Source of the DNA: Acrasis kona
Taxonomy: Eukaryota; Heterolobosea; Eutetramitea; Acrasida; Acrasidae
DNA: 64,000 nucleotides
Direction: 5' to 3'
Assembly (NCBI GenBank): GCA_026419775.2
Contig: JAOPGA020000078.1
Location: 62,001-126,000, forward strand
Positions within the stretch are counted from its first letter, which is position 1. Each line of letters starts with the position of its first letter. Below, piece after piece: positions 2,293 through 60,758 of this stretch. The position numbers were made by a program, and so were the translations under genes. Below the pieces are notes generated by a model. The model was given only the letters and a program-made list of their open reading frames with translations, made no database searches and had not been told where the DNA came from.

Positions 2293-5200
2293 ATGATAAC
2301 GAAGAGAGAAGGGCCGTATCTAAGTTTAATTACATATGCGGTCTCTTTAGTTTATTTATTACTTTTGGGACTATCAGCATACTTCCTCTATACCGATAAT
2401 TTCGACTTCGATTGGTTATTCGTACATCAGGTGGATCAACGTCCTCTTCGTAAGACACATACTAGTATCAAAAGGATAAGACCTGCGCTCCAGCAACTTT
2501 TCACAAAACATTCGAGACCCTTACGGTGAGTCGTGCATTTTTAGATTTTACTCATCGACAATTCAAAGGGCATTCTTTTTGATACTTGTGATCGTGGTTA
2601 TCGTCATGAAATTGTTCAAGAGCTTGATCTTGGATCGTGTTGAAAAGAGATGGTGGTTCACTAGAGACAACAAAAAGAATAGGAAGGTGAACAGTAGGAC
2701 AATCTCCATCAAACAAGTAAGGTCGCACCAAATTTACAGCAGTTAACGCGGAATAGAATAGCGAATTTACCTGCTCCGACACTGCCACAAATGAACTTAC
2801 CTCGACGTTCCAAGGGTCTTACACCACAGTTGCGGTGTTGTCTTTTCTATATGGGTCTGTGCAGTACCTGGCAGTAAGTTCATGCTGAATGCATTGCATT
2901 AACCTTTTAGCAACGAATGCAAGTTTGGTGCTTAGCTATCGCTTTTGTACAATTATATGTGTTCAGAACCGGCAAGTCGTTCTGGCCCCTAATCATCTTT
3001 ACATTTGTTATTGGTTTCATGTACATGTGGAGGCAGTTGGGAATTTGGAAGACTGATCGCAAGCGCAACGACCACATGATACAATTAGCTAGTGGCGGAA
3101 CCATCCGTAGCGGAGACATAAAGCCAGGACATGTAATCAGAGTTTCAACAGACGAGTTGATACCTGCTGATGTGCTCATCATTGGTGTTGATGAACCACA
3201 AAAAAGATTTTATCTCAACGAAGTGCAAGTAACTGGCGAGAACACACCAGTGAGAAAGCTCTTGTTCAAGAATGAAGTTGACTGCATTGACATTGATGAC
3301 CTTCATGTGAGGAGTCTTGTCGTAACTACAGGTCAAACCAAACGTGCCGTTGATGAAAGCATGATTGCTTTTGCCAACTCTACCTTAGTCGGGCCCACAA
3401 AAGTAAGTCGATCCCATCGTTCAATCAATCTTACCATTAGTTCATTGTTGGAATCGTATGTTGGGTCAATAGGGAGACGAAAGCATTGAGCGAGCCCAAA
3501 CAAAAAATGTCACAACAATCATCTCCATTTACAGAGTACACAAACAAGGCCTTCTTAGTGTCCTTAATCACCATGTTGATCTTGGCAACCATGGATGCAA
3601 TAGCTGCATTCATTGGCGCCCAATCACTAGAAGGAGTTAAAATGCCAAGTTCGTTCGGAACCATCCTCGTCAATCATATCATGTATTTAAACATGTTAGT
3701 GCCTCAAGCCATCGAACAACTCAGATTGACCGTATGCTCATTACTTTCATTTTCATTCCGTTCCCGTGTCAAATGCAACAATCCTCTAGTCGCAGACGTA
3801 TGGGCCAGCATCACAAGAATCGTAACCGACAAAACAGGAACATTAACCGAAAACAAGATGGTAGCAAAAGATCAAGTTTTATACACAAAGTTTTCGGACA
3901 ATGAGACAAACTTTCAATTGGAAGACACAACATCAATGACGGAAGTCACTCCCGATCTCATGAACCACCTACTTGCCATCATGTCCACGACCGGAATGGA
4001 ACCAGAAGAAGTCAGCATTGCGTCTTGTATGAAACATTTGAGCGCTTTGGACTCGGTGACTGATCATGAAATACGATTCGATCACGACACAATTGAGATT
4101 ATCATTGCTTTTGGATTCGTGAGAGCACTACTTGCCAAAGTAACATTATTCCGATCAAAGTCAACCGGAGAATATTACGTCGGAGTTCAAGCCGGAGGAG
4201 ATGACTTTTGGCGCGGAAAAACAGGAGTAACACCACATGAGGACACCATTCAAAAACTATCCGATTGGACCACTTTAAACATTGACATCACTTCCATCCG
4301 CGGAGCACCTCGTTTATGGAGTCATGGATTAAAAAAGATCACCAAGATGGAATCACAACAGGTGGAAGCCGAGTGGAACCAATGCGATTCGATCCTACAC
4401 GAGTCAGAAAGATTTTTGGAACAATTACAAATACTAAAGAAATTAACACAAAAGGTTCCATTAATTTCCAGAACGTTCATGATTGATTCGTATCGAAAGG
4501 GAGTCAAGGAGGGAATCGAACAATTATACAAGAGCGGAAAACCAGTTTATATCTGTACGGGAGACAGCACCGCCGCAGCAAAAACAATTGCAACCAATTT
4601 GGATTTTCCATCCACCACCATCGAATTGGATGGATCCAACGAGCAATCTCTAATTCGTTCCATAAGCATTGCCATCGATCGTCAACGAATTCAATTACAA
4701 GATCCACCACCATCGCCCCATCCTCAATCATGGTCGAATCAAGTTCAACAAGAAATCAACATTCCAGAGAATTCAGAAAAGACGATTACCCCATTAACCA
4801 TTTTCATCGATCAAGATGTGATGCAATTGCTCAAATCTATTCAAGAACGAGAAAATGGATACAAAGGAAAAGCATTCGATTTGCTATTCGAATTAATAGA
4901 GGCCAGAAAACCTCACAAACCTCACAAACACGGCAGACCTCTGCATTACTTGTTATTTTGTAGAGCCACGCCTGCTCTGAAACCATGGGTGGTTCAACTC
5001 ATGCAACACGGTCATCCACCACCACTTCCAGTCCATGCGCATCCCTCTCTATCGAGCGTAATCTCCCAGCGCATCAGAAAGGTATTTAATCCTGGTAAGC
5101 ACTATGTATTAGCGATTGGCGATGGCGCCAATGACATTAACATGATTAAAGTGGCCGATGCTTCGTTGGGAATCAAGAGCACCGATATCTCTGATGATGT

Positions 5201-6278
5201 ATGCAACACTGCGAGCGTGTGGCATCACGAATGGAAACCAGTGGTCACTCTCTTGTTGGAGGATGGACCCGAAAAGGCGACCTTGTTGAGCACCATGGTT
5301 AAGGCTACCTTCTTAAAGCACTGGATGACTGCCATGGCTTTATGGGCTGATTTGTTGTTTAATGGATTCACGCTGTTCCCCATGGATCCCACTCATCCAA
5401 TGCTCATGATGTTCTATAATGGCGTGGTGTTTATGCAAATCGCTTCTCATACGGGTCACGATGTTGTTCCTGGACGTATCAGAGCACAATTAAGAATAAA
5501 GAATTTGATGAGCTTTAGGGCATTTTTGAGATGGGCAATTGCTGCAGTCATGAGTGGGTTTGCGATTGACTGGATTGTGAGAAGCTTGTTCCCTAATGCA
5601 AAGAATACTGAATTTGGTGCCATGATTCAAGTGGCTCAGTGTTTTTCTGTTACTGTTTATTTGTTGTTATCCACTAACGCTTGGACCGATCATCATAAAC
5701 ATTCCACCTTTAATATCAAATCGCCCGAGCACTTTGAACATCAACAACAGGCGTTGGAGCCTGAGGATGTACTTGGTATCGTGTTGGGTTTGATGAGCCT
5801 GATTGGTGCTGTTCTGTCCGTGTTTTTTGCTTATCGATTCGGTAGTATTTTCCATTTGGTTGCAGTCGTGATGGTTGGCGCTTCTTGTTACTTGTCGAGA
5901 AATTTACTGTATGTCATCACAAAAGACTTGATGCACGCACGGGAACAAATTCAGCACATGTTAAAGTCTGGCGGACAGCCTCGTATCGATAAGTTTATTG
6001 CCTGGAGTCATACAAAGAATGGTAGGTTGTTGCCTATCCTTGTATTTGCATTTTCTATCAAATTAATTAGTGGCGGNGGTGTGCCTTTTATTGCATTGAT
6101 ATTTATCAGTGCACTAACCAGTGCTGTTAGTGGCGGTATTTTCTTATTAGTGATCAGCAGAATTGGTTTTATGAGGGCTTTGCTCGATGGTAGGAGCATG
6201 GCCATTGCAGTTGTTGCCTTTGCTTTGGGTGTATGGTTTGGGAGGGGCACTGCTCCTGCACCAGCAGTTGTTGTTTAA
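2293..6278 (+). CDS. Divergent P4-like P-type ATPase (putative lipid flippase, five exons)
   Basis: Membrane ATPase of about 1275 residues, probably translocating a lipid (inference from P4-like features). Exons: 2293-2525, 2569-2716 (acceptor could be at 2544, adding 8 residues), 2757-2873, 2911-3402, 3441-6278; introns are 37-43 nt. P-type hallmarks: DKTGTLTENKM (phosphorylated Asp about residue 460), CTGDST (hinge) and GDGANDINMIK (P-domain). CRATPALKPWVVQLM and the long helical C-terminus are P4-like. Oddities: the actuator loop reads VTGENTPVRK rather than the P4 consensus DGET, the TM4 segment reads LVPQAIEQL rather than PISL, and two extra hydrophobic segments precede the usual first helix. 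One ambiguous base at 6077 makes one residue uncertain. It could alternatively be an unclassified P-type subfamily. Confidence 0.82.
6077..6077. other. Ambiguous base (N) in the assembly
   Basis: A single n in the ggcggnggt context lies inside the C-terminal membrane region of the P-type ATPase. The reading frame stays open through it, so the length of the tract is probably right and only the base identity is unresolved. Confidence 0.99.
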
Positions 6279-7578: not shown

Positions 7579-10404
7579 ATGTATGTCAGGACACTTTTGA
7601 TTGCAGTTATCCTATTGAGAGCGGTGAGCACCCGGACTATTAGTTGGACAGAGTGCCCAGTAGTAAACCCAAGTTTCCCTAGTATTAACATGTTCCAACA
7701 ACCCGATAACGGCATTTCATTCTGTGGGGTGCAATCTTTACCATATAACTACTCAAACTCAAATAATGTTACGCTCAGACATAAACTATTCTTATCCCCT
7801 TCCCCAAAAGGTAACGTTATTCTTATAGGAGACTCTATAATAGTACGTCAAACAAACATTTTTACAAACATTTCAATAGGGAAACAGTGGAGAGGGAATT
7901 GAGCAAATCGGCTTCTTCTTGTACAAATCACTTTCTAATGCGTACAATGTATATATTCCAGGGCTTAGGGGTACGAACGACGAAGCTTTATCAATGTGTA
8001 GCGGGCAAACTGGTTTGTCTTTGGATCGTTTAGGAACCATCAATTGTCAAAACGACCCACTGTACGGTGATTATGATGGTCTGACCGTTGACATGATTGC
8101 AAGTGATGTAATAGAATTTATAAATCAAGTTACCTTGAAATATCCAGATATACCATTTACATATTATGGAAGGGGTTTTGGTAGCTACATTGTCAACCGC
8201 ATCCTTACAATGAATAAAACAAATCCAAATTCTGTCATATTAGAATCTTCCTGGGGTCCTCATACAAACGCGAGCGATTGGTAAGTCATATCAAAAGCTC
8301 AATTGTTTACCATTTTGTAGGGATTATCAACGCAATAAGATGTCAATGTCACTCGTCAAATTATTCGACGAAAACCCCTCACCAGAATATATATCAATCA
8401 CGTCCGCGAAGAGTCTGCATTTGTATCATTCCATAGCATCCATGCAAACTGAATGTTCGATATATGGATATGACTATGTTCCTGTGCTCACAAACACACT
8501 ACTAGATCCATCTCTACGCCCAAAATTCTTTAGTTTGATGGCACAAATGGATAGGTGTATGACTTATGATTTGGGTAATATAGGTTCTTACTTTGACCCA
8601 ATTGGAGATGCAAGATTTAACTTTGATACATATTTGAATTGGGACAAACCATTAGTTTCATCAATCCTAGCTAATAACGTTATATTATCAGAGCTATTTG
8701 ACAGTGAAGTAGACATTCACTTGGATATGCAATACCATGTAAATGACTATTGTAAGAAATTGAAGGAGGTTGGATGGAAGAAGTATCCACAAAGTCCTTA
8801 CCGATACGTAACAGCAAACTACTCTGGTCCGGTATTGATATTGAATGGAGATTATGACCCTCAATCAACTGTAGAGTCCTCACGTTTGTATTCAAAATCG
8901 TTTGTGGACGTAAGATACTTCGTAATGGCTGGTATGGGTAGTGATACGCTCACAAAGTCATTTGCTGCAGGTTCTAATAAAACTTGTTCGGCTCAAATCA
9001 TAGAGCAATTCCTGCTGTGTAAGAATTGTTCAATCGATTCGTCTTGTGTTGGAAATATGACGCAAGTAAATTTTCTGGGTGATGATCGCACGAAACTGTT
9101 TTTCGGCGATTATTTGTGGAAAAGTCGATACTATGCTCCCGATACATATAGTGTAGTCATGGCTGTCATTTATTCGGTTCTTTTGACTTTCTCAGTTTTG
9201 GTATTAATTCTTCTTGTTGTATTTAGAAAGAATAGAAGGGTGACTTCTAGAAGTATCTCTCCATTTATCGGTCAATTGTATATAATGTGTAATCTTCTTG
9301 TGTTGATAATATCGTCATGTACCTCACGTATTGCAAAACCACTTAGTGTGATTGCGATTTTAGTACAGCAGACTTTGTTCATCGCGTCCTGTGTGGCAAC
9401 GACAGTGCAAATCATCCGTTTCTTCATTTTCTCTCATTTGTATAGAAACATGATGAATAAGGCACCGAGTAGTGCAATGTTGAAGGTTTTGTCAAGCGTC
9501 ATCCCTTTGTTTGTCGCAGAGATTACAATCATCCTATTGTGGTTGATATTTGATATTATTGGACTGTCACTGTACCTGAGCGGAATAGATATTATTACTT
9601 CATACTATTATTATATTACACTAGGATTGGGTATTTCATTTGCATTATGTACTATTATTATGACATTGTATGATGTCATCTCTCAATTAATAGTCACAAA
9701 ATTCGATATGCGCCTTGTGCTCCTTCATAGTGACCCTCTCTACTTTCGAATCGATTCTCTGTTTATTCTTTTACTAATTCCAACAGGTTTGGTAAATACC
9801 GTTTTACAAAGAAATGGTGATATTGCTTCTATGATTACTGCAAATGTTTCACTTGTCATATATTTTATAGTATTTATACTATTTTTTTGGTGGGATAGTA
9901 GTGTCAGCTTGTATAAAAGAACTTATTATTAATAAAAATGTAAAGACCGCTGTTTTATTAGGTATTGGGGAAGATTCAGATTCAGAGCAACCAGATCATG
10001 ATATTATTCAAATGTTTAGATACAGTGTGTCAAGGAAATTTGTAGAGGAGTACTGTAAAGGTGAATTTTCTCTAGAAAATGTACTGGCGTTTATAGATCT
10101 GCAGGATTTATTAAGTCAAGAAAACCTTGATTCAGCAAAGTTTGGGCCATTCTATGAGATGTACATCAAGAGATTTTCTCAAAGAGAGGTTAATTTACCA
10201 GCAAATGTTGTCAATGAATGTAAAGCGTTAATAACAGAAGACAAACCTGACAAGGAGGTAAGGAGAGTTGTAAGAAAAGTTTCGATTGCCACTTTTGTTA
10301 ATCTTCAAGATACTTTTAATCGTTTCAGAAGTACAAGAGAATACCAAGAATGTGTTGAGGCTGTGAGGAGTGCTCAGCTAATAAAAGAAAAAATTGGCAT
10401 GTAG
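7579..10404 (+). CDS. Receptor-like protein: inactive S33-type alpha/beta-hydrolase ectodomain, 7TM region and RGS domain
   Basis: Exons 7579-7842, 7880-8280 and 8321-~9897, then an RGS-coding exon to 10404 (start 9920 or 9962, unresolved); about 894-908 residues. A signal peptide (residues 1-18) precedes an ectodomain resembling secreted S33/TAP peptidases: Cys-containing N-terminus, GDSIIGNSGEG at the oxyanion loop, YIPGLRGTND, and LILNGDYDPQS at the acid position. The nucleophile elbow reads GRGFGS instead of GxSxG, and the expected His site reads AGMGSD, so both catalytic residues appear lost. Several N-glycosylation sequons are present. Seven hydrophobic helices follow (about residues 499-746). 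The last ~120 residues match an RGS domain (FVEEYCKGEFSLENVLAFIDL to FNRFRSTREYQECV). The RGS frame has no good own ATG near its start, which supports one fused product. Likely a plasma-membrane regulator of heterotrimeric G proteins (inference). Confidence 0.72.
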
Positions 10405-10476: not shown

Positions 10477-13400
10477 TTACAACGTTCGCAGAATTTCATC
10501 TATATCTTCACCAGTACAAGGTTTTACAACGTATTGATCCATTCCAGCCTCCATAGCGTTCTGCGAATGTTCTTGACGAGCATTGCCACTCAAACCAATA
10601 ATTCTTACTCTTTCAATACCTCTCTCTAATTCCAAATTTCTAATCCGTCTGGTGCACTCCAATCCGTCCATCTTTGGCATCGAAATATCCATAAAAAATG
10701 GCACCATAGGGGGCGCTTCTCTTGTTGTATTTTTCAAGCGCCTCCACGCCATCACCAGCAACTTCCACCAGACATGATTTCATCGTAAGCATCTTTGCAA
10801 TTACTTTCTGGTTGATCAAATTATCTTCGACAACCAAGACTTCCAATTCTCGCGAAGGTTTCTTGTCGCTCTTCCTCTTGTGATTCGATACAACGTTGTT
10901 CCCACGAACCACATTTGCGTCTTTATCCATTACTTGTTCGCACTCGAGAGCGAAATAAAAGTTACTACCACGCCCGACAGGATTGCTTTCTATCCATATA
11001 TTTCCGTTCATCAACTCACAAAGCATTTTGGATATAAACAGCCCTAAACCACTCCCAGAGTATTCCACAATACTACGTTGAGTAGCTTGTGCAAATCGAT
11101 CAAATATGATGGAGCGATTTTCAATCTCCACGCCCACACCCGTATCAGAAACACAAAACTCTATATGCACCGTGTTTTTGAGTTGCACTTTGGCCGTAAT
11201 AGTTATTCCTCCCTTCTCCGTGAACTTGATTGCATTCTAAAAGGTTAGGAACTGATATGAATGGATGATGACATACGGATACCAAGTTCGTTAGTACTTG
11301 TAGGATGCGATTATAATCAGCATTCACTATCAAATCAACCACGTGTTGTTGTAGTTGATACGTTAAATATAAATTCTTTTGTACTGCACTACTCTCGAAC
11401 ATTCTGATCACATGTTGTAACAACATATCTATGCTCATGGGTGCGTAGTTCAACTTTAATTGTTTACATTCCAATTTGGACAGTAACAGCACATCATCGG
11501 TAATTACTTTTTGGTACTTACCACACGTACGTATGGACCGTACTCCCTCTAAGAGAGTTTGTAGATGATTTGGATTGAAGCTTTGTTCCTTTTCCATTTT
11601 ATCTAGAACATCGGTCATAATCTCGCAAGTGCCCAAGAAGCCTTGAATGGGATTACGTATTTCGTGACATATACGATCTACGAATTCCTCTTGTTGTCTA
11701 TAATACATGAGCTCCTTTTCTTTGGTGGCTTCTGCATGTTCACGCACAGCTGCCATTTGTGTTTGAACGCTACGTGCATTTTCCAAGCTAATTGCCACTT
11801 GTGAAGCCAACACGCCCATCACGTCCACTTCCTTTTTGAAACAATTGCGAACTAGGTTGTTCTCTACGTATAGTACAGCTTGTACCTTATTTCTACTAAT
11901 CACTGGCATGCACATCATGCTCTTGATGTTATTGGATTGAATGTATGGATCGTTCCTTATAAATGAATACTGAGAATCTTCGTACGCACATTTACAAACG
12001 ATAATGCGTTTATTCTCTATCGCGTATTTGATGACTTCGACACATCCATCTTTCCATTCTTCTAGAGGAATGTGATAACATTGATTGGTGCCCGATGAAC
12101 AACACACCATTCCGTTTACAATAATGGCACCTTTGGATGCATTCGCCGTTCTTACAATCTAATTACAACTGTCATTTACAATTCAAAGTAGTTACTTACA
12201 ATGTTGGTCACGTTCGTGATGAGTTTTTCCTCATCGATATCGCTACTGATGAGTTGAGCAGCGCTCAATACATTCCTAATGTCGTAACTTGCTAATTCCA
12301 CATTCATCGTATTGGTCATTGCTGATTTTGATTGACTAGAATCATTCGAATCTTGATGATCCACCATATCACATAATTGTTTATATTTAATCTTCATCAT
12401 TTCATTTTTACTATGTGCACCCCATTTCGAATAAGCATTATAAGATTGACGCAGCGAATCCATTGCAATTCGATCTGCGTTTGCTTTGAATAGTGACTTG
12501 GCCTGTAATTCCAGCGCCAATGCCTCTTCATGTACAAATCCGTGTTTTTTACATTCTTGTATGGACCTAATCAAGATTTAATCAATGTCAATGATGATTA
12601 TACTTACTCTTCATAAATACCTATGCTGTTCCATAGTTGATTATCTACATGCGCAGTCATCTCTGCTTGTATCAATAAAATTTTGCTCTTGAAATTAGCT
12701 TCGTATTGTTCACAATGGGATTGTAACGTCGATAAATACTTTGCGATCCTATCTAATATTTCTCTTCTTAAATCGCTCTGATCTACATATGGACAATTAT
12801 CAATCTCTCTAATCACACGAATCATTAATAAACTGCCGTAGAAAAAGTGATATGTTTCCATGTACATGACTGCAATGTAAGGTTGGTTCTGCTCGATGGT
12901 GTAAATGGCGTCCATGTAGCGACTAGAAAACTCTCCTGGTGACTTGGTGCACTGATCTACATCTTGTTGATAATCATCGAACAAATGACACTGTAGCATT
13001 TCTCGTATAATCATGCTCATTGTGGCAGTGCATGTGGATGATTTGTTATTAATCACATCATCCATGTATTGATAAAAGTTCTTTACTGGGACAATGCCCT
13101 GCATCACATCGCACACAGCCAATGATAAAGACGATACATCCAATAAGGTCATATTTGAGAATTTCTTGGCCATTTCTTGACCTTGTTTGATTTCTCTAGC
13201 GGCGCTACTCAAATTCTCACCAACATAAATCAAACTAGGTTGTCTAAACGTATGACTCAACACTCCATAAAAAATCTCACCAGAGCTCATACCCAACGTG
13301 TACAACTCTCTCGCGTTCTCTAGTCCATATCGAAGGGAAAAGTAATAACACCTTAAAAAGTAATTATACAAGTGCAAAGTCCTCACGTTCTCGCTAATGC

Positions 13401-16400
13401 GATCAGGAAAGACGTTTTCGGTCAATAAAATAACTAGGTCCGATAAATTTCTAGTGATATCGTAACGACCGGCTGATGCCTGCGTAATTGCATAATAGAC
13501 CATTACACCTGCTGTTTCTCCAGTTATACATTTATTTAACATGACAATCAATGCGGTGGAGGCAACTGCTGGGAACACCGCTTGATCAGATAAATAACTC
13601 TTGAGCAACATGGTCACCAGTGCAAAATAAACAATTTCAGTTTCCAAATCAACGGTGTACTTGACTAACGGTAAAATATCAATTTTTCCATTCGAATCAC
13701 GTAACTCATCCAAACGCATATCGATTAGTTTTTGATTTTGTCTAAAGTTTTCGTTTGCAATCACTGGGTCGCTCTCCACGATATCAATGTTGTATAATTT
13801 AACCAATGTACGTCCAATGTCTATTGTTTCGGGACTCATCAAGGTGATGCACTTCATTAGTTCCACTCTATAAATCATGGCCAATTCTCTTCGGGATTTG
13901 TTCTTCTTGTGTAGGATGTTCATGATGGTTTGCATTTTTTCGTAATCGGATGTACTAAAGTAAGCGGTGCCGATTTCGATATGTAACATGAACATGAGAT
14001 CGTGGTGGCGCTCCCATCGAGTATCTTCGTCGGGACACGATAGTTCTAAACAAGTAATGCCCTCGCTCAGGTACTTGATGCTACTTCCATACGAAGCCAC
14101 TTCCATACTCTTGCGACCAACTTGCATGTTGAGTTGACTCATTTCTATTAATTGTGTTTCTATGCTTTGGTCACACAATGACCTGACGTGATCGATCGAT
14201 TGTTGATTAGTGTCGAATAGAATGGATCTGCCCTTGTTGAGATGATCGGTAATGTCGAAGAGGGCATCGTTTTTTACAATGGATTGAGAAGAATTCAACG
14301 TATTGTTGTTTTGTAATTGTTGCCATTTTCTACCAATGCTGTAATGAATGTATACTCGTTCTTGGGTGCTCGTGAGACCATAAGCAGCCTCTTGAACCCG
14401 ATCATGAGCAAATTGTAATCGATCTTCTACGTTGACCATCATCCCTGCGTTCATCACCTCGTATAATTCCTCTTGGACCTGTTCAAGAGTGCTGTTCATC
14501 GCATAAGCCAACACTCTCACATCAAAGCTATTGCCCATACAACTAGCCCACTTGAGCACTCGTTCGGTTTCCTTACTGAATTGACTGACGCGATGCGACA
14601 TGAGCGTTACCACATTCTCCGTAGCCTTTTGTGCTCTAATCTTATCAATGTCCCATTTCCACACTGGTGGTTTTCCTTCTCGATACAACAACTTTTCAAA
14701 GTAGATTGTACGCATGAATAAATGCACAAAGAATGGATTTCCTTCTGTTTTTTGATAAATCATATCGGAGAGCTCCATTAGGCTCTCTAATCCTTTGGAT
14801 GATTGTTGACGACGATTGTCGCGAGCGTTAGAGTCATCATTGAGGGTATCGTGCACCCACAAACGAACGGTGTCCCTTTGTAATGGAGATAACACCAAAT
14901 CAGTTACGGTGGTGGACTCTCTCATTTGTTCGATCATTTTAAAAGTGGAGTGTTCGGGTCCCACTTCATTGTCGCGATATGCACCGATGAACAACATGTT
15001 GGACACGTTGACGATGAGTGCTAACATGACTCTGGTACTTTCTCTATCGGCCCATTGGATATCGTCGATGAAAATTACCATCGGTCTACCTTGTTGTACG
15101 AATGCCTGTATAAAGTGTACTAGAGTGCTTTCGAGACGCCCTTTCGCCTCTGCTGGTGCTACTTTGAGTACTGGTGGTTGGTCTCCGATGACTTGATGTA
15201 ATTCAGGCACTAGATCAATGATCAATTGTCCATAAATGCCCACTGCGTCTAGTATTGTTTTTTTCCAATAGACTAGCCGTTGTTCTCCCTCTCCCAAAAC
15301 TTGTTTCACTACCATTCTCATGGCCTCGACTATGGCGCCATACAGACTGTTTCTTTCTAGTTGGTCGTATTTGCCGCTTGCAAAATAACCTTCCTTAAGT
15401 TGAGCAGATCGTTGTAATTCCCTCACCAGAGATGATTTTCCAATACCGCTGCTTCCGCTGACTAGAACTACTTCGGTAGTACCCCTTGCTGCCACTCTGT
15501 CGAATACGCTTACTAACAGGGAAACTTGTTGTTCTCTTCCGTATAGCCTCGTGGAAATGCCGAATCTTTCGGCATAATCCAAATGACCAATGCAGAACCA
15601 TTCAATGTGGTCTTGATTGTTTGCATCCGTTTGTATTAATTGTTGACATTTTTGTAAATCATGAATGAGGCCTTGACATGATTGATACCTCTCGCTCGCA
15701 TCCTTCTTCATGAGTTTGTTGATAACGTCGCCAATGACTCTCGGAACTTTTTTGGGATTAAGTGGAGGTGCCTCCGTGGCAATGTGACAATGTATGATTT
15801 GCATGATTTCCGTACTTTCGAATGGTAATCTCCCCGATAAAATTTGGTAAAATGTAACCCCTAAGCTGTAAAAGTCTGTCCGGTAATCCATTTTTCTGTT
15901 GATGCGTCCAGTTTGTTCTTTGATTGTGAGAATAATTGTAATCATCGTTTACCTGGTGACAAGTATGCGAGAGTACCATACACTTTTTGTAAATGTGTTG
16001 TGGATGATCCCATTTCTTCTTGTAATTGTGTCGCGCTCCCAAAATCTACGTAAACAATCTTCTCATCTGGAGTAAAAACCTATATAGGGTGTAAAAAAGA
16101 ATCGAAGCGTGGACTTACAATGTTTGCAGGTTTGATGTCTTTATGTATTACACCATTTCTGTGAATATCCATGAGTCCCTGTGCACATCCCACTGCAATA
16201 TGTAAGAATTCTTTTACAGAGAATCCTTCGCTTGGTGTAAGAGATGATAAACTCTTCGCCTTGTCATCCTTAAAAATTAAAAAAACCGCGACTCCTTTCT
16301 CGTTCTCGCCGTCAAAAGTCTTCTCTAATATCGCTTTGTACTGGACTACACGATTGGTCGACCTGCTCGCCTGTGTACCAATTTTATATTCTCTTTTAAG

Positions 16401-59385: not shown

Positions 59386-60758
59386 TCACCACTTTCTTGT
59401 TCCAACTCCAAATCTTCTTGGTTCGAACGATGACTGTGGCTGCTCCTCTTCAGATAAATACTTCTTTACATAATCATTTAACATGCATGTGGTTGCTTTT
59501 GTAAAAACGGTTTCTTTACATTCTTCCAGCAAAAGAGCATCCTTCATTAGTTGTCTAGTTATTCTCATTCGACTAGCAGCAAACTTTAAAAAGATGAATT
59601 CGGAGTTCATCATGTTGAAAGAAAGCTTCAAATCATAAAAAGATACTAATGTGAACATGCACTTGTTATCTGAAATCTCTTTAAAGACCCAACCGCAAAT
59701 CATGCTGATGGGTATAAAGTTTGTGGTATCAATGTCGTCTCTTCCGTGACCCGACTTGAAAGGTTCCACGTCGCTCATTTGTTCTGGATATCCGCCGGTG
59801 TGTATCTTCTGTGTTGTCTTCATCAGAAAGATGTAGCATTTCTTCTCAGTGTCATAAACAACGGTTGACAAAAGATTGGCGACACGTCCAGTGGCGAGTG
59901 GAAAGTGAAAAACAAGTTGCGAACAGTGTATGGGGTATGGTGTGGAGGCATCTATTTTTTTGTAACCTACAGACTTCCATGAAGTAATAGTTTTATCGGA
60001 TCGTGAAGTCCACTCAAAGTTTGATGTAATATTCATTGCTTTAAAAGCACTACACGACAAGTATCCGGAGCTTTTACCAAGTTTTAGTCTAGTTGAACCA
60101 CCAATAGCATAGTTCGTTCTACTTGTATAGCAACTAAAGTGGTCAGGGTCGCTGTCAATGTTGCCCCCACTCCAATCAGGAGAATCTTCTGCTAACTTTA
60201 ACAAAAAGACAATGTCTCTGTCGTTTATTGTCTCACAGTTAAAATCCTTCGGTTCGTATAGGAGTGCCTTGTTGGGAATCTGGGAAACATGTATGGATAT
60301 TTTTTTTATCAATGCTTCTCCTTTCTTAGAATACATTTGAAAATGTTTGCTTCGGACATAGCGAGGAAGACAATCTTCTTTCAAGTCACTATACACTATT
60401 TTATATGCCTCAAAAAACAACAACGGCTTCTTGATAACGTCGTCTCCTTCGATTGCAGCTTTTATAGCATTTTTCAGTACACCATCAATGTTCAACTCAA
60501 AGTTTGCTCCTTCGACAAAGTATTTGTGATATATGGAATCGTATGTATTTTTAATATCTCTCTCTGATGTGAGCCCCCTTACTTGTTTAATGTCAGTGAG
60601 GAAAGGAATCGCTTCGGGACTGTTTTTAAAAATAGAATTCAAAGTTGTGAGACTTACACATGGCATAGTTCAAGGTACTTCTGAAAGTCAGCAAGTACTT
60701 CGTTCTCTTCTAGAAGAAGGTCAAACTGGACTTCATAATCCAGAAGTTTGAACTTCAT
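59386..60758 (-). CDS. RGS domain plus START-like lipid-binding domain protein (two exons)
   Basis: Exon 1 60658-60758 and exon 2 59386-60619 (38-nt intron) give about 444 residues. Splicing restores a complete RGS domain: DLLLEENEVLADFQKYLELC, FLTDIKQVRG, IYHKYFVEGANFELNIDG, then FFEAYKIVYSDLKEDCLPRY and VRSKHFQMY. The ATG at 60666 inside the intron-exon boundary would truncate it. Residues about 140-370 look like a START (lipid-transfer) fold: GYLSCSAFKAMNITSNFEW, YPIHCSQLVFHFPLA, GWVFKEISDNKCMF and a C-terminal helix with MKDALLLEEC. Likely modulates heterotrimeric G-alpha activity in response to or together with a lipid ligand (inference). Convergent with the Ras-like gene. Confidence 0.78.

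Follow-up and report, generated by a model that had tools for sequence, protein, structure and literature searches.

The locus at positions 7579 to 10404 on the + strand of the window, the 64,000-nucleotide stretch of Acrasis kona DNA analyzed here, raises the question of whether a heterolobosean gene joins a peptidase-like ectodomain that has lost catalytic residues to a seven-helix (7TM) membrane region and an RGS domain, and what such a protein would do. A. kona is a social amoeba that aggregates into fruiting bodies (PMC11589745, available text). The gene is probably one of a group of A. kona paralogues predicted to encode 7TM RGS receptors of the plasma membrane, in which a dead-peptidase ectodomain would allow a ligand to set the brake.

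Gene layout, family and the frame change in TM7

Translation was taken to start at the ATG at 7579, and the gene was read in the following parts.

7579..7842 (+): exon 1, with a signal-like start and the first part of the hydrolase ectodomain
7843..7879 (+): intron 1, 37 nt, GTACGT...TAG, by the GT-AG rule and frame
7880..8280 (+): exon 2, ectodomain with the nucleophile elbow
8174..8176 (+): Gly codon GGT in the catalytic Ser position (YGRGFGS), by comparison with triad-bearing relatives
8281..8320 (+): intron 2, 40 nt, GTAAGT...TAG, by the GT-AG rule and frame
8321..9932 (+): exon 3, first frame, with the remaining ectodomain and the 7TM region, to the in-frame TAA at 9930-9932
8856..8858 (+): retained catalytic-type Asp (NGDYDPQ), by alignment with relatives
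8940..8942 (+): Ser in the catalytic His position (MAGMGSD versus FPGVVH), placed by eye via paralogue C362 (MPGVVN); a gap in the MAFFT alignment sets the site slightly elsewhere
9144..9930 (+): seven-helix membrane region, by hydropathy and the GPCR-like fold of the AF2 model of paralogue C466
9871..10404 (+): second frame, covering the TM7 end, linker and RGS domain up to the stop TAG at 10402-10404
9882..9888 (+): run of seven T, with a one-base frame change inside TM7
10024..10350 (+): RGS domain, Pfam PF00615, 29.2 bits

The signal peptide proposed in the preliminary description held in part: the N-terminus is hydrophobic by eye, and five of seven paralogues reached the 1.6 hydropathy threshold at their start, but the window gene stayed below it. 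Exon 1, with an intron 1 at the same spot, was readable in all nine other loci (L035-L043, counting the near copy C241), the intron being 35–42 nt long as picked from several candidates per locus; the C551 protein in the database, P0001, is spliced from a different donor. The stretch 10477-15948 (-), which converges on the RGS gene, held parts of a large hybrid histidine kinase in several frames broken by introns or indels (AAA_16, GAF, HisKA, HATPase_c and Response_reg, with a partial protein kinase domain below cut-off). A 945-aa frame at 3441-6278 (+), with one undetermined residue, gave HAD-hydrolase matches and looked P-type ATPase-like by eye.

Searches made separately with the ectodomain and the 7TM region led to the same genome loci, namely C36 (the window gene), C466, C888, C362, C530, C551, C719, C241, C237, and C333. 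These ten loci comprise nine distinct copies and C241, which differs from C719 in 14 of 885 aligned codons; a fragment of the family ectodomain at C150 (L049), perhaps a remnant copy, stands outside the ten. The pairs C241/C719 and C148/C564 are near-identical loci on separate contigs, which may be recent duplicates or stem from two haplotypes. After splicing of predicted introns, seven of the ten loci (C466, C888, C530, C551, C719, C237, and C333) encoded an unbroken protein from ectodomain to RGS domain, C237 with one short predicted intron towards the end of the RGS domain, which makes the fusion a family-wide trait. The search for relatives with the same domain order, suggested earlier, thus found them within A. 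kona, and the claim that hydrolase, 7TM region and RGS domain form one protein was borne out for the family, but not for the window copy as assembled, which is interrupted in TM7. Like the window copy, C362 has a frame change in the 7TM region, and C241 diverges from C719 towards the 3' end. A database profile search with the family matched three A. kona proteins, those of C551, C888, and C362; the other six distinct copies, including the window gene, were absent from its hits.

The window gene lacks a single frame in the assembly, with a stop at 9930-9932 and an RGS frame (9871-10404) shifted by one base. The joint falls on the T7 run at 9882-9888, where the paralogues have ILYFGGLVVTHC or MVIYFGGGVVFSC and the window copy has ILFF and then, in the next frame, GG; directly past the break, the window residues correspond to the last part of TM7 and the linker in the paralogues. 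Reads of the 454 type are prone to homopolymer errors. The A. kona assembly is a 454 and Illumina hybrid (PMC11589745, available text), and an error of this kind is the simplest reading of the break, although it is possibly a real lesion. An intron at the 7TM–RGS joint was judged improbable: among the GT-AG pairs that restore one frame (donors 9761-9930, lengths up to about 140), those removing short stretches cut TM7 or have poor donors by eye, and the seven unbroken loci are intronless there, so that a one-base difference is simpler. Nor is an intron needed at this joint, because seven of ten loci read straight through.

Were the frame shift real, the window copy would be a pseudogene that had lost its RGS domain, and only the paralogues would be functional. 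The in-frame stop at 9930 agrees with this, as do the break in the 7TM region of C362, for which a homopolymer cause was dropped because no long run lies at that place, the departure of C241 from C719 near the 3' end, and the survival of C150 as a fragment only. However, the sole break in the window gene sits in a T7 run of a hybrid 454 and Illumina assembly (PMC11589745, available text), and the other 2.8 kb are open except for the two introns and align with the paralogues; we regard a pseudogene as unlikely, if a chance to be reckoned with. The same stop might instead separate two adjoining genes, one for hydrolase and 7TM region and one for RGS. This is refuted for the family by the seven loci that are continuous from ectodomain to RGS, and the match of the post-break residues to the TM7 end and linker of the paralogues also argues against it, making two genes highly improbable here.

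A hydrolase ectodomain with an incomplete triad

Homology and the predicted fold of a paralogue indicated an S33/TAP-like alpha/beta-hydrolase core with a cap. The ectodomain is homologous to S33-like proteins encoded elsewhere in the A. kona genome, whose triad motifs are intact; L044, L045, L046/L047, and L048 are predicted proteins of this sort. Pfam alone was not accepted as proof, since the window exons were below threshold for Abhydrolase_4 (16.3 bits, cut-off 21) and Hydrolase_4 (14.5, cut-off 27), although paralogue C530 exceeded the cut-offs for Abhydrolase_1 (31.6 > 25.8) and for the TAP-like Abhydrolase_4 (31.5 > 21). Both structure models are of paralogues, built on a 14-row and a 13-row alignment, and the comparison of the ectodomain with S33 peptidases gave the core and cap. 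This fold is common to Hip1 (Rv2224c), TnmK1/K2, and tricorn factor F1, which we take to be members of family S33; unlike them, the window ectodomain lacks the triad His and Ser and sits on a 7TM–RGS protein. The same-genome homologues, the paralogue fold and the C530 matches uphold the hydrolase fold first proposed from the window.

The Ser-Asp-His triad was found to be incomplete throughout the family. The His is missing from all nine distinct copies and the Ser from four, including the window copy, and Asp-Pro is retained in all nine. Both replacements read earlier from the window were confirmed: GRGFGS has GGT at 8174-8176 where triad-bearing relatives have Ser, and AGMGSD stands where the His is lost. 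The preliminary description had not mentioned that the catalytic Asp (NGDYDP, codon 8856-8858) is retained. The five copies that keep GxSxG (C362, C530, C551, C719, and C333) form one group in the tree (support 82/87), with a Ser codon of AGT in four and TCC in one; the four Ser-lost copies have GGN. A single loss of Ser was rejected, as on the tree the Ser-lost copies require two changes, in an order that neither the tree nor the codons settle. NG86 dS was near saturation in the C551–C333 comparisons, and the ectodomains of the paralogues are divergent (28.8–63.9%). Because five of nine copies hold the nucleophile Ser, residual chemistry may persist in them. Overall, comparison and modeling predict an S33/TAP-like hydrolase behind a signal-like start, deprived of His in every member and of Ser in the window copy.

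The 7TM–RGS core and its relatives

The seven hydrophobic helices described earlier were recovered as seven stretches by hydropathy in the window gene; C551, one of seven paralogues, gave six. The AF2 model of C466, compared with VIA-align, had a GPCR-type seven-helix fold, with class C GPCR structures at the top of the list and other GPCR classes within 2 Z. No 7tm family was listed in the Pfam scans of family members, and no GPS motif before TM1 was detected at E ≤ 1 in eight of them. Membership of the adhesion GPCRs was rejected, since no GPS turned up in the eight scanned members and all 40 GPS matches in the genome are located elsewhere by their listed coordinates. These matches lie mostly in long frames, and none coincides by coordinates with a listed RGS match; A. 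kona may have a set of adhesion-type proteins that lack RGS. Loop charges, with helix limits set by hand, weakly favor a topology in which the ectodomain would be outside and the RGS domain inside.

The RGS domain was corroborated by a profile match in the second frame (PF00615, 29.2 bits > 23.9 cut-off) and by a PDB sequence search that led to RGS17 (E 3e-5). Four of nine copies were over the PF00615 cut-off and five below (18.0–23.3 bits), all at E ≤ 0.004, the C237 piece being scored without its last exon; the G-alpha contact motifs were present in all nine. Because five copies are below cut-off and C530 is the only member among the 150 RGS matches listed for the genome, the RGS domains of the family are divergent. 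Since the VIA-align rows span the 7TM region, the RGS assignment rests on sequence. In most members, a GPCR-like seven-helix bundle and a canonical-type RGS domain with G-alpha contact motifs are predicted in one chain.

The A. kona genome gave 74 G-alpha matches at E ≤ 0.001, some of them short of the family cut-off, and 19 at E ≤ 1e-40. At least 150 RGS matches were present, and a second one in the window lies at 59386-60669 (-; PF00615, 44.7 bits). The 28 surveyed among the 150 listed were the 8 best-scoring and 20 longer + strand frames, and are not a random sample because they were picked by score, frame length and strand. They included RGS domains joined to bacterial-type sensor parts (CHASE-RGS at L005 and L068, MHYT-PAS-RGS at L069), and L001, L061, and L066, which resemble short multi-helix RGS proteins.

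With the C466 7TM–RGS region as query, one other protein was found, the metagenomic P0004 (REJ-GPS-7TM-RGS; E 3.5e-5), which hhalign matched to the family at E=4e-26; a search from P0004 reached P0005 and P0006. All three have a homologous 7TM–RGS core with motifs like those of the family (SR..PYxGL, DPLxFR, and EFsLEN), but carry a GPS before TM1 rather than a hydrolase, with REJ in P0004 and P0006 and fibrinogen C in P0006. The A. kona multi-helix RGS locus C108, with DPLRYR and EFSVEN motifs and a short N terminus in its frame, matched the P0004 7TM region weakly (E 0.004). Because these proteins and C108 carry related cores behind other N-terminal parts, the core seems to be modular. Each homologue search scored about 8000 candidates, and absence elsewhere is therefore weak evidence.

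Plant RGS1 had been named as a precedent, and AtRGS1 is indeed, by description, a 7TM protein with a C-terminal RGS domain, whose target G-alpha takes up GTP by itself. It is not known to have a large ectodomain. Closer are the 28 putative 7TM RGS proteins of another heterolobosean, Naegleria fowleri, several of which have large ectodomains (PMC9283941). According to the available text of that study, the RGS domains of Nf 7TM RGS2-4 accelerate GTP hydrolysis by G-alpha subunits, of which two take up GTP without help, and a response to extracellular cues was left undetermined by its authors. These proteins share with the family the 7TM region, the C-terminal RGS domain and, in some, a multi-domain ectodomain, but the latter, compared by description, is built of GPS, EGF-like and lectin-like parts instead of a hydrolase (PMC9283941). 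In mammals, an extracellular binding domain on the 7TM protein GPR158/mGlyR similarly controls an inner GAP, RGS7-Gb5, and a binder of the ectodomain lowers the GAP activity of the complex; unlike in A. kona, the RGS protein is recruited, not fused, and the ectodomain is a Cache domain (PMC12834959, available text). The words 'peptidase' and 'hydrolase' do not occur in the main text of the Naegleria paper (PMC9283941) or of a choanoflagellate GPCR paper (PMC12716839), and words starting with 'RGS' are absent from the main text on the A. kona genome, which treats G-protein regulators in general only (PMC11589745). The open-licence literature yielded no paper joining RGS domain, GPCR and Heterolobosea by those words, nor, judging by titles, a relevant one on a pseudoenzyme ectodomain on a 7TM receptor or RGS protein. 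As no 7TM RGS protein with a pseudo-peptidase ectodomain was found in that literature, supplements aside, the earlier statement that none is known stands as far as searched. Measured against that literature, the dead-peptidase outer part is new, whereas the 7TM–RGS kind of receptor is known.

Proposed role and rival readings

The most likely role, judged from this analysis, is that of a receptor in which the cleft of the dead enzyme would bind a ligand and set RGS activity. The ligand sensing and the direct control of G-alpha deactivation suggested in the preliminary description are likewise conjectural. With the ectodomain outside the cell and the RGS domain inside, the former active-site cleft and the cap would bind an extracellular ligand (a peptide, an acyl compound or a surface partner) without turnover; binding would shift the 7TM region and reposition the RGS domain, which would alter the rate of G-alpha-GTP hydrolysis. 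The receptor would set the brake on G-alpha subunits, a role also ascribed to the 7TM RGS proteins of plants and perhaps of Naegleria; some of the subunits concerned load themselves with GTP.

Neuroligins and other cholinesterase-like adhesion proteins are precedents for dead hydrolases that serve as protein–protein recognition modules, and the ectodomain might likewise convey cell–cell contact to the RGS domain during aggregation. Such an adhesion receptor would accord with the aggregation of Acrasis into fruiting bodies (PMC11589745, available text), the adhesion-type ectodomains of some Naegleria 7TM RGS proteins (PMC9283941, available text), the related cores behind GPS domains in P0004-P0006, and the divergence of the paralogue ectodomains, which would suit recognition; but the Pfam scan of eight members detected neither GPS nor another adhesion family, and we regard this reading as unlikely. 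Alternatively, the Ser-bearing copies could keep partial chemistry (an acyl-enzyme or slow hydrolysis) and signal through the modified state, with the window copy as a more degraded member. The GxSxG of five of nine distinct copies, which fall in one tree group (82/87), and the Asp-Pro of all nine are consistent with this, but the catalytic His is gone from all nine and the window copy and three others lack Ser as well, making such a hydrolase-receptor improbable. A bolder version of the preferred ligand-binding receptor, to which we give a slender chance, is that an Acrasis surface peptidase was turned once into a ligand-binding domain setting the G-protein off-rate; the Ser copies would capture the ligand covalently, and the hydrolase lineage would therefore be a graded sensor of peptides or acyl compounds in aggregation.

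The 7TM–RGS core appears to accept unrelated ectodomains, a dead peptidase here and GPS/REJ in the metagenomic proteins. If the receptor reading is true, a ligand outside the cell would directly set the inner RGS brake, with no separate, recruited RGS protein. The family would then be a defined group of social-amoeba orphan receptors, to set beside the aggregation receptors that the genome paper presents as candidates only (PMC11589745, available text).
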